From NCBI RefSeq assembly GCF_042453785.1, contig NC_091670.1, positions 39,133,501 through 39,197,500 of the forward strand: a stretch of DNA of 64,000 nucleotides, written 5' to 3'. The stretch comes from Malus domestica (taxonomy: Eukaryota > Streptophyta > Magnoliopsida > Rosales > Rosaceae). The first letter of the stretch is position 1; every line of letters starts with the position of its first letter. The notes beneath the pieces were generated by a model, which had not been told where the DNA came from, ran no database searches, and saw nothing but the letters and a program-made list of their open reading frames with translations. Position numbers and translations under genes: made by a program. This document shows positions 23,458-29,299 of this stretch, piece after piece.

Positions 23458-24446
23458 TATTTTTTAATAATAGGTGGATAATTACTGCGGGCATCCTGGA
23501 TAAGTCGGGTAGGTGATTTTAGTTATTGCATGAATTTTAAATTATGTAGTGGGTGTTTTTGGCATATAGAGGTGCCTTCAAATAAATTGGAGAGTGGCAA
23601 TTAAGCCTTTTAGACGAAAAGAAGAATTTTTGGGTACTTAAGAATTAGAAAGAATTCCTCCTGCTGCGTAGCCAATTTACATAATCATGGGTTGATCTCC
23701 GTCTATCTATTTCCTACAGTTGATTATCTAAACGATATTAGTTTTAATTTATTTATTTTACCATGCAGTTATATTGATTCCAATCATAAGCATTGAGTTC
23801 CTTAAACCTGTCACGGAGTATTTGGAGGATGAACTCCTCGTCCTTTGAATAGCCAAGTTAATTAGACTAGAAAGAACCGCGTTTGCATTAAGAATGGGGA
23901 TGCAAATTACATGCATCCCCAAGTGTTCTGGGTTTTGTACTTGGAACCAGAGGGGAGCGAAGCATACAAAACAAAGTGATCTTTCATGTCTATATCATTC
24001 AGATGCCAATGGTAATTCACAAGTAACATGGAAGAATCTAACCAGAGCACCCGATTGCGTCCTAACAAGAACAGAGTAACTGTATTTAGGAAGAACAATA
24101 TGAAAAGAGCGACGCCAAACTAGATTACAAACGAGGTTTTTGGCTAATCATTTACATCACAATCGTCGTTATTTTTTCACTCCCTATGTATAACTACAAG
24201 AGAGAACATTGATATAGCTCATGCTAGCTTGTGAAGTTGCAAACTCAAGGCCTGATGCATCGCATTTGAGTTTCAGATGGTCCTTCGAGTAGCAGGTTCT
24301 CACTGTCGGAACCAAAGCAGGAAAGAGAAAGCGTGTCGCGCTCCTGATATTCAAACAACATAGTAAATCATCATTATCAGTATAACCATAGTCAATTATG
24401 AATGCTTTTATAACAAGCCAACCTGTCATTGCCTGTAAGAATGCTT

Positions 24447-27400
24447 TCAAATAACAACCGTCGGCGATCTCAAACATGTTTGAAGCTCCTTCGACATCAG
24501 TTTTGCGGCAAATTTCTGAACTTTATGAATGTAAGTAATTATGAAGGAAAATGCAACTTTATCTCGATGATCAAAACGGAAGATAGAAAAACAGGAAATT
24601 AACATCTAAAACAGCCTGAAGGATATCTTTGCTTCGTAGATGGGATGGTTGAGCATCAGTAGATTATTGTTGTTCACAACAGCTCTAACTAGCAGTTCCT
24701 TGGCTTCCTCGTGTTTCTTCCTCAGCATGTTGCATATCTGCAAGAAAGAGAGAGAGAGGGGGGGGGGGGGGGAGAGAGAGAGAGAGAGAGAGAGATCATT
24801 ATAACCCGTGATATATAATTTATAATTATATGCTGCATAAATGACCGATGCATAATCAATCGCAATGACACTGCCTTGCAGTCCTAATTTTCTCTATAAT
24901 TTAACTGAATTCATAGCTTAGGTGTTTGAATTCTTTAATTATAATGCACACAGAATGTCACCGTAAAACAAGTGATAATTTACTCACATCTTCAAGCTCC
25001 TTAGCATACGCTTCAGCCTTTTCAACATTTCCATCATTTTCCATTGCTGAAGGAATATCAAGTTCCATCACATTGATTGCACAAGGACTACCAAGTCCAG
25101 AGGTCGGATGGTCATCTAAGGTGCTGTTAGTCTTGCTCTCCAAATGACTCTCATGAATGCGAACCTAGATCAAACGTACAGAATATTTGAGCAGATAGTT
25201 TATCTGGTAAAGGTTTCCACCTATTTTACTTTATAGATACACTTAACAGTCTTTATAAATCATTGATTTTATGGAGTCAGTTGAGATGAAACCTGTTCTG
25301 CAACAACTTCTTTTGAAGGTAATTTGAAATTTCTGCAGGTATTTTTGGAAAAAAGAGTGTGATATGTCAGCAGATTACCAATAAACCACTTTAGAATAAT
25401 ACGTAAATAGTAATAGTGTTTTATGCAGCTATTTGCGAAGAAAAATTAGATAGGCTGGAAAAAGATGAATAATATGTTAAATGCGTATATACTAGTAAAA
25501 GAGGACCTGGATTCTCTAGGTGACTGAGAAAGGCGCTTTAAAGGCTTTAAGAATGCTAAACCTGAATCTGATCCCTGCAAAATAGCTTCGTGTAAGAAAT
25601 TGGAAAAGTGCAATAAAATCTTCACTAATCATTTGGATAGAATAGAACAGAGCTTCAAATAAGAATGTTATAGTCATGATATCATTCCAAAGAGAACAAC
25701 AGGAGTTAAAGGAATGGATTTATAATGGAAGACCTCAAATGTTTTTCGCTTCAAGGAAAAGTTTGGTGACATTTGTTTCTCAACAATCTGGGCAGTCTTT
25801 GATTCCACATTTCGTTGCACTTCCATGTTTTGCTCTGGACTACTCAGGGATTTCAATTCTTTATGCGGTGTAGCATTCAATGAAACTTTACTGCCACCAA
25901 TATTCCTACATTTAGAAACATCAAAATATTCAAAATCACAATTAAAACATTTCTGCACAGAAAAGAACTGAAGAATAGGAGTAATTACACTCGCACCATA
26001 CTTTGAAATGTTCAAGGTAGAAAGGTCGGTTTTTTTCTTGGAAGGTTTATCAGGAAAAAGTTTACTCCCTTCAGCTGTAATGATCTTTGTGTTCCTCATA
26101 GACTCCAGGCTTGAGAGCATGAATTTAGGATTTACACATGTCTGAGTACTAGGTTTAATAGTCTTCTCGATTGTGCTGGAAGGATTTGCTTGACAGCTAG
26201 AAATCTCCACATGCCTAGAATACACATATTGACAATCAGAAATTTCACTACAAGGTTTTGAGGACCAATAATAATGTTGCTGAACAATGTACGAAGTAAG
26301 TTGTCATGTGCCTGAGAAATAAGCAGTCACATCTTTGGATGGGAACATCTGTGGAAAGCCACATTCTGAATGATAAGATATGCAAAGTAAAGTACAAGAT
26401 GGAACAAGGTCTTTTATAAATGCTTTACCTGAGATCATGAAGACTTTTTCTCAATCCACTTCCAAGGACAGTTTCTCTTTCTGTTATTTCTTTGTCAGAT
26501 GGCCGTGGATTCGCAACCAGTTTGGCCCTGTTTGGTACAGCATCAGAATTGAGGCCCTCCCTGTTGATAATTACAAAGGAAGGGACACTGCAATTTAGCA
26601 TCATCAATAGCTTTGTAATTTCTATGAACTAAAATGATGTCATCCTTTTTTTTGAGTGATTCATTGTAATACGATGTCAGTGTTAAAACTTTATATATCT
26701 ATTTATTTAAAACAAAAGGATTACTGGAATGTTGTGCCTAGAGTCATCAGCTGATATTACTTTTAAATTTTAACATTACCTTCCAGATATTACATGTTTG
26801 GCTTTCATTTCTTTATCAACTAACACAGGAGTATCAGGCAAATTGCTTCCAATTTGTGCACCATGAACATTAGTAGCCACCCTGTTGAAGATTATACAAA
26901 ACAGTTTATAACTTAAATGCCTACTATTCAATTGTTATGGGAAAGTTCACCGTATCACTCACCCTTCAATTGCTGGACGTAGACGCATGGTATCAATCCT
27001 TTTGATTCCAGATGAGAGAGGTTTTGCTCCTATTAATGATGGCTGACACATTTGAGATCCAGGTTCTTCAAATCTCTTAGAAACCTTTGAGTGGAATTCT
27101 CCACTTTTGGTTTCATTTGTCAGCGTAGCTTTATCAACTGCAGATTCACTGCATCAAAAGAGGGAAAATGTAAATGACGCATTGATACTAAAGCTCAAAT
27201 GTTTGCTCCCTATCAGAGGTATCTACACAGTTCAAGAGCATACCTGTTATACATAAAGATTAGAGTCTGTTCATTATAAGCATTTTTTTTTCCGATTACA
27301 TTATCATAAGCATTTGCATGTACTCAACTAAAAAATTAAATGGTTCTATGCATTTCTCATAGTTTCAGTAATAGATGTACTTGATTTCTGATTATTGTTG

Positions 27401-29299
27401 GTTTTTGTATTCAAAACCATTTTGACTCGTGACAGTTTCTACTTCTTATAGTTCAAAACATATGTCAGTGACTTGAAGGATGGAATCAATGAAACAAAGG
27501 TGGCAGCTATCAATATGCTCAAAGATTTTCTGACCTGCTCTCTGCAGACAAAGGAAGCTTTGAAGTCGAATTTTGGTCATCCTTGATACATTTGATGTTA
27601 TGTAGTGTCTTCCTTGAGATGAATGTATTGGAATTGTCTCCGAGATCTAAGTTATCTATAGCTGATTCAGCGTTCTCAGTCGAGATATCACTGCCTAACT
27701 TTGGTTCAGCGTTTTGTGTAGATATGTCACTGCCAGACTTACAACCATCACCATTATTGCTATCTGTATTAGCGATGTTTACTGAAGATGAATCCTTCAA
27801 AGGCAAGTCTTCACTATTAGGACCATCTCCTGCTGACATTTTCTCATCAACATCTTCTTTTCCACTTGAAATGGTATTCAAATCTGTGATCTGAAGACAA
27901 CCATCATTCTTTCCTTCAAAAACGGTACCTCCATTTGAATCAACTCCCCCTACAAGTTGACCAGACAGGTCATCTGTTGCTGGCTTAGCATATGGTTCTG
28001 TGGCCATGTCCTTCTCAGATAAATGAACTTGCTGATCTGATTCTTCAATACCATTAGTCATTACTTTTCCTGGAGACCTTGGACCATGTGGAAGTTTCAG
28101 ATTTTCTGATCTACGTTTTGATGGGCAATCATCACTGATAGAATTAACCTTGCCTGAAACAACTAATGAAGTATCAACCTTTAAAGGGGCCACTCTCTCA
28201 GAACCACCATCAAGTGTACTAATCTCTTCAGCTAGATCGATTTTAGAGCCCTGAGGTCCTCTTCTATCAGAAAGAAACTCTTTTCTGCTATCTTGATTCT
28301 TATTTGAACTTTTTTCACTTTTCGTTAAGCTTGAATCAAGATCGAAATCACCCAACCCACTTCCAAAAAAGAAAGTGTCAGGTTCAACCGTTCAAGTACA
28401 TTTACATTCCTTATGTAATTCAAATAACGAAACAACAAGATAATGCAGAGCTTACTCATTGAAATCAAAAGAGAATTTAAAGGGGTCTTGTTTCCCTTGA
28501 TGGTTTCCTTTGGAATGTTCTTCTTCAGATTTCTCCTTGGTTTTTGCAGCTTTTCTGGGCGGGCTTGAGAAATCAAGGTCTGGCATGTCCATTTTGAAAG
28601 ACGATATCTTGCCAAAGTCACCATCCAGATTGAAATCCATATCCCTGAACAAAAAAGAGGAAAAGGAACTTTATAAGAGTTGTCTGGGATTTCTAGACTC
28701 ACACTAGCATACATTTATTGGAGCTATATCTGTATAACTGGAATAAGACTACTTGAATCCCCAATTCTATCCTCCTTTTCAAAACAATTTGCCACATATT
28801 ACCCTGAGTACCAGATACACCAACAAAACTCATAAAGGTAGATAATTTACCCATGATAGCACACAAAAGTGTCACATAACTGTCATGCAAACCTTTAAGC
28901 TCTAAATAGAAGGAACCTATTAAATGTTTAGCAAGAAAAACACTTCGCAGTACTTACAGCTTCTCAAAGTCAAACACCTTCTTCTTGCCTTTGGAGCCTT
29001 TGGAAACTGTATCAAAGCCAAAATCCATTCCGTCATCTTCCATTACTGATATTGATTTCCAGGAGGTGAGAAATTCGTCTCCGATTTCCTCATCTGTTAT
29101 AAGAGGAACATAGGATCTGATTACATTGTTCACGTCAAATGAAAAATTCAGACTATTAACTCTCACTCGGACATTCTTCTTGTATACGATGACTTACACA
29201 GCAAAGATAAAGGTTAAGGGTAACCAAGAGAATACCTAGAAATGAACTTTTTCCTTTTTGATTAACCGAGGAAGATTTTGCCTTCTCTGATTCTGCCAT
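24447..29299 (-). CDS. At4g18490-like acidic protein of unknown function
   Basis: Phase-checked model, 13 coding exons, 864 residues: 29299-29236, 29093-28958, 28644-28456, 28359-27535, 27148-26963, 26881-26780, 26560-26429, 26214-25734, 25574-25507, 25332-25293, 25164-24988, 24737-24627, 24530-24447. A non-coding exon ends at 30268. The N-terminus has [17 protein letters not shown] and repeated Asp-Phe motifs ([30 protein letters not shown]). The middle is long, Ser/Asp/Lys-rich and looks disordered. The C-terminus is the conserved part: a coiled-coil-like [20 protein letters not shown], then [16 protein letters not shown] and [14 protein letters not shown] recall this architecture from the uncharacterised plant family named after At4g18490, which in Arabidopsis is the direct neighbour of CHLI1; CHLI is two genes away here. 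Nuclear location is a guess. The last intron is U12-type (separate entry). Confidence 0.78.
24531..24626 (-). other. U12-type AT-AC intron
   Basis: Minus strand: exon ...GCAAAG, then donor ATATCCTT (24626-24619), branch-site-like TTCCTTCAT (24549-24541), and intron end TTAC (24534-24531). The donor is a perfect match to the minor-spliceosome AT-AC consensus. The branch A lies 11 bases from the 3' end, the short spacing typical of U12 introns. Only this splice joins NHPIYEAK to [15 protein letters not shown] in frame; without it the frame stops within six residues. Confidence 0.9.
24745..24795. repeat. (GA)n with an internal G-run
   Basis: GA repeats interrupted by about 16 Gs, inside the intron just upstream (in gene sense) of the exon ending at the U12 intron. 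Confidence 0.9.

Follow-up and report, generated by a model that had tools for sequence, protein, structure and literature searches.

The consensus of the U12 branch site is TTCCTTRAY. In plants, approximately 0.06% of introns have AT-AC ends (PMC6310983), and AT-AC introns are reported to make up 26% of the U12-type introns of Arabidopsis and 23% of those of soybean (PMC7367187). The optimum distance between the branch site and the 3′ splice site in U12-type introns is reported as 11-13 nt (PMC3584512). Phase 0 is reported to be avoided by minor introns, which in many plants also show a preference for the 5′ half (PMC10639083). In Arabidopsis, more than 50 genes with putative U12 introns encode proteins of unknown function, and the same report states that no defect has been linked to a particular intron (PMC4892727). 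Furthermore, ab initio gene finders are reported to handle non-canonical splice sites badly (PMC5716242).

At4g18490 is SCEP3 (PMC12283363). Studies from 2025-2026 describe this as a central-element protein required for synapsis and crossover control (PMC12283363, PMC12711579, PMC13170185). The Arabidopsis gene is reported to have 16 exons and to encode 803 aa, and this gene model was confirmed via Sanger-sequenced bud cDNA (PMC12283363). Seear et al. reported 801 aa from a cloned cDNA with 3′ RACE, and detected only one of the seven predicted splice variants (PMC12711579). The difference between 803 and 801 is accounted for by residue numbering, which is shifted by two between the N-terminal peptides of these papers. 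In yeast two-hybrid assays, residues 734-803 of Arabidopsis SCEP3 bind ZYP1 (PMC12283363), and self-binding as well as binding to SCEP1, SCEP2 and ZYP1b is reported for the C-terminal coil (PMC12283363, PMC12711579). Biochemically, Seear et al. did not obtain a robust complex of ZYP1 and SCEP3, but the C-terminal coil associated strongly with itself (PMC12711579). The C-terminal region of B. napus ZSL is reported to bind ZYP1 and SCEP1/2 (PMC13170185). The available text of the SCEP3 and ZSL papers is silent on which type of intron comes last. No text among the matches listed links SCEP3 with U12 splicing, and supplementary lists of U12 introns may well contain SCEP3.

We analysed a window, by which we mean the whole 64-kb stretch of DNA (G000:C10:39133501-39197500), and searched the genome (651 Mb, 19 contigs) for snRNAs and for copies of the locus. 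The exons of the gene described here were set manually on GT-AG borders plus one AT-AC intron, and only coding exons were placed (Table 1). Joined together, these exons encode 832 residues in a single open frame, which runs from the ATG at 29299 to the TGA at 24447. Twelve of the 13 coding introns have GT-AG ends; the 13th has AT-AC ends and is in phase 0. With two antibody peptides of Arabidopsis SCEP3, the model shares 15 of 19 residues (aa 69-87) and 17 of 20 residues (aa 756-775), and the latter match lies in the conserved C-terminal domain, which is reported as helical in SCEP3. The conserved N-terminal FxF / FKMD region of SCEP3 is also present in the model (FKFSFDF plus a FKMD-region stretch). 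As judged from the predicted protein, the gene is SCEP3 (At4g18490), a synaptonemal-complex central-element protein, and an earlier note on this DNA was right to call it At4g18490-like. In the Pfam search, the 832-aa model gave no family and the 85-aa C-terminus gave one match below the cut-off (Csm1_N, E 0.11). The six matches in the PDB search (E 3.9-8.1) were not meaningful, and none of the pattern matches to relatives in viral contigs (6) and genome contigs (27) was confirmed. Intron 12 of the model carries a polypyrimidine tract (24740-24795, minus strand) that is a (CT)n-C15-(CT)n microsatellite abutting the acceptor TTTCTTGCAG; the length of this tract likely differs among cultivars.

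Table 1. Positions of the SCEP3 gene model, of the signals of its last intron and of the partial copies.
Feature	Position	Strand	Remarks	Basis
Predicted SCEP3 coding region	24447..29299	-	14 coding exons placed by hand; 832 aa spliced	
SCEP3 coding exon 13	24627..24737	-	37 codons; includes equivalent of Arabidopsis aa 756-775	
SCEP3 coding exon 14	24447..24530	-	27 codons + TGA	
Very probable U12-type AT-AC intron	24531..24626	-	96 nt; final one of the 13 coding introns; phase 0	Sequence, intron table, signature scan
5′ splice site ATATCCTT	24619..24626	-	U11 5′ end pairs with +3..+8; U6atac AAGGA pairs with +4..+8	
Branch site TTCCTTCAT	24541..24549	-	Likely branch A = 24542; C in place of consensus purine	
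3′ splice site AC	24531..24532	-	11 nt past branch A	
In-frame TAG	24606..24608	-	Reached upon intron retention	
Partial SCEP3 copy (L004, L009)	G000:C5:42501637-42509372			
Partial SCEP3 copy (L005)	G000:C5:42475752-42477465			

The AT-AC intron (24626..24531 on the minus strand) reads ATATCCTTCAG...TTTTCCTTCATAATTACTTAC. Its donor agrees with the U12 AT-AC consensus at 8 of 8 positions, and its branch site agrees with TTCCTTRAY at 8 of 9 positions, the exception being the C at the R position immediately 5′ of the branch A. The distance from this A to the last intron base is 11 nt. The exons join as AAG|ATT in phase 0, the tail is open, and the AC end restores the frame: 27 residues are added and the frame ends with the TGA at 24449..24447. 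Without splicing, the frame continues for six codons (ISFRLF) and then meets the TAG at 24608..24606, in agreement with the claim of the earlier note that the frame otherwise stops at once. When the sequence was re-read, the coordinates, donor, branch site, terminal AC and 11-nt spacing were as that note had claimed, on the minus strand. Its word "textbook" is slightly strong, given the C at the purine position of the branch site. Among the 13 coding introns of SCEP3, only the AT-AC intron has a U12 branch-like site with a single mismatch; the best branch-like site in the 11 other scorable coding introns has at least 2 mismatches, and intron 12 had no candidate. On the motifs, the frame and the gene identity, the best reading is that already put forward in the note, namely a minor-class (U12-type) AT-AC intron that is the last coding intron of SCEP3, and we consider this very probable.

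The motif ATATCCTT occurs five times in the window as compared with 3.7 expected, and the complete signature is present at one of these five sites, the last intron of SCEP3. At least one complete signature of the loose type was found in 42 of 200 shuffled windows. Therefore, the motif alone is weak evidence. We rejected window-wide rarity of the motif as proof and kept the rarity argument for one place, the 129-nt stretch from the start of exon 13 to the read-through stop, where exon 13 must end. The chance of a complete signature in this stretch is approximately 2e-4 (400 shuffles gave 83 donors that had a complete signature), as computed before the right reading frame was required.

These values bear on the reading in which exon 13 is read through to the TAG at 24608, with no intron, and the motifs are there by chance or are derived from a decayed intron. 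The frequency in the shuffled windows and the one off-consensus base of the branch site are in line with such a read-through, and the low chance at the 129-nt place speaks against it. The length of the protein speaks against it as well. In Arabidopsis, 28 residues follow aa 775; in the window, 18 residues follow the equivalent position when the intron is unspliced and 39 when it is spliced. Because the Arabidopsis numbering is based on cDNA, the requirement for 28 residues makes it unlikely that the protein ends at the unspliced stop; this argument is arithmetic on published numbering, not an alignment of the Arabidopsis tail or intron. We consider the read-through to be highly unlikely. If the exon-13 part is assumed to be equal (12 residues), the next exon in Arabidopsis comprises 16 residues and ends near ...KLMSKEL of the window protein. 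The window tail is 11 residues longer than that of Arabidopsis by numbering, its last 11 residues are without Arabidopsis counterpart, and the two 3′ ends therefore differ. The earlier note had proposed that the splice restores a conserved 13-residue tail: the published Arabidopsis length after the second peptide supports this only indirectly.

A different C-terminus would result if a weak U2-type (GT-AG) intron were used whose borders lie elsewhere. The GT donors of the SCEP3 model score 4 to 7 of 9, and 5 of the 12 score below 6, which makes weak donors plausible. Given this range, a low score is not by itself a reason to reject the best GT site. Ahead of the read-through stop there are four GT sites, with scores of 5, 2, 3 and 2 of 9, and the best of them (GT 24689), when joined to TTACAG at 24433, gives an open tail of 82 residues. 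However, this GT sits in the match to aa 756-775, so that its use would remove part of the match, and the tails would have at least 82 residues as compared with 28 in Arabidopsis. Accordingly, a U2-type intron at this place has very little probability. It is just as hard to believe that the same U12 donor and branch site are sometimes or mostly joined to another 3′ end: AGs are present at 24516 and 24521, but their distances to the branch A (26 and 21 nt) are beyond the reported optimum of 11-13 nt, AT-AG combinations are reported to be disfavoured (PMC3584512), and the AG equivalent to 24516 is absent in one (decayed) copy of the locus on contig C5. The AG ending at 24516 is in frame and drops IHKVQ (five residues fewer), and the AG ending at 24521 causes a frameshift. 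The other AC near the branch site, 7 nt from the branch A, gives a 3-residue tail.

When a 140-nt query was compared with the genome, its own locus and two places on C5, 26 kb apart and both 89% identical, were found. Both C5 copies retain the donor ATATCCTTCAG and the junction AC|ATTCATAAAG. Their branch site is TTCCTTAAT, and the spacing from the branch to the intron end is 4 nt longer than that in the window. The copies match exons 8-14 only, and exons 1-7 had no match (blastn E <= 1e-3) in the approximately 9 kb and 24 kb fetched upstream of them. In copy A, exon 8 contains an in-frame TAG and approximately 194 extra bases, intron 9 is approximately 6 kb longer, and exon 12 has lost 2 nt; in copy B, exon 10 is interrupted by a 5-nt gap. 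Because only exons 8-14 are represented and these carry a stop and/or frame-breaking gaps, the C5 copies are most likely pseudogene fragments. The identity of intron 13 is 92.6% and 90.5%, and that of exons 12-14 is 86-93%; introns and exons diverge alike. Since the copies are decayed, the shared signals reflect descent and not selection, and we rejected the conservation on C5 as proof of function. The copies show that the AT-AC intron is older than the duplication, and they hint that TTCCTTAAT was the older branch site.

In the genome, U12 snRNA was found at two loci over the cut-off and one below it, U11 snRNA at two loci over the cut-off, and U6atac gave nine matches over the Rfam cut-off. 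The U4atac model gave no match in the genome; none of the 14 control genomes matched either, and hence this search is uninformative. Pairing of U12 GTAAGGAAAA (L006, L007) with TTTTCCTT is interrupted by a mismatch at the C, and the bulged A is followed by a G-U pair. The off-consensus C in TTCCTTCAT costs one U12 pair, and TTTTCCTTAAT of the C5 copies would pair with U12 better by one base than the branch site of the window. AAGGGT of U11 (L012) forms six pairs, one of them G-U, with donor positions +3..+8, and AAGGA of U6atac (L014, L015) forms five pairs with positions +4..+8. The U12-like match below the cut-off (L008 on contig C14, 40 bits) keeps the branch-pairing GTAAGGAAAA and diverges directly after it. 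Two of the U6atac matches (L014-L021) have near-full scores (99.1 and 98 bits) and the rest have 36-65 bits; the weaker ones are perhaps variants or pseudogenes.

The U11, U12 and U6atac genes, together with the motifs, the reading frame and the identity of the gene, are consistent with the following course. U11 would recognise AUAUCCUU, and U12 would pair with UUUUCCUU beside the branch A. U11 would then be replaced by U6atac at the donor. The branch A at 24542 would attack the donor, and the exons would join as AAG|ATT 11 nt downstream. Splicing would add the 27 residues and thereby complete the C-terminal helical region of SCEP3. If the intron were retained, the protein would stop after ISFRLF and lack these 27 residues. 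We infer both the removal of the intron itself and its effect on synapsis.

The junction of exons 13 and 14 lies between residues 805 and 806 of 832, within the last 70 residues. It is located in the helical region at the C-terminus, for which binding to ZYP1 and SCEP1/2 is reported. The end of the SCEP3 protein may be lost by ordinary gene-finding software. The splice would complete the region for which yeast two-hybrid assays show binding to ZYP1 and SCEP1/2, so that AlphaFold models and orthologue alignments based on annotations without this splice would contain a truncated interaction domain. Retention would presumably disturb synapsis. Because the intron sits within the C-terminal region, it might also be a meiotic control point, at which the minor-spliceosome activity of meiocytes sets the amount of full-length SCEP3 and the retention product is stable but impaired in complex building; we regard this idea as speculative and rather unlikely. 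If it were true, U12 splicing, and stress on U12 splicing, would be tied to synapsis and crossover number. The intron offers a direct handle on whether defects of the plant minor spliceosome affect meiosis.

As compared with the known proteins, the window protein shares with SCEP3/ZSL (At4g18490; B. napus ZSL) an N-terminal FxF-rich stretch, the FKMDMP motif, a long polar middle and a C-terminal 15-residue stretch. It has FKFSFDF where Arabidopsis SCEP3 has FAFSYDF, and it is larger (832 aa versus 801-803 aa). We placed 14 exons as compared with 16 reported in Arabidopsis, and our number counts coding exons only. The new detail is the rare-type last intron in SCEP3; the kind of intron itself is well known. 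We have high confidence that the intron is real, ordinary in kind and situated in an unusually informative gene.

With plant U12-type AT-AC introns, the SCEP3 intron shares the ATATCCTT donor, a TTCCTTRAY-like branch site, the AC end, the absence of GT-AG ends and a short distance from the branch to the end. Unlike usual plant U12 introns, it has one off-consensus branch base, phase 0 and the last position. In view of the trends reported for the phase and, in many plants, the position of minor introns (PMC10639083), its phase 0 and 3′-most position are atypical, but not strange. The U12 intron of CBP20 in land plants is likewise reported to have a set place and to divide the coding regions for protein parts (PMC5932401). 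However, it is in a different gene and in a middle position, being the fourth of seven introns (PMC5932401), whereas that of SCEP3 is the last.
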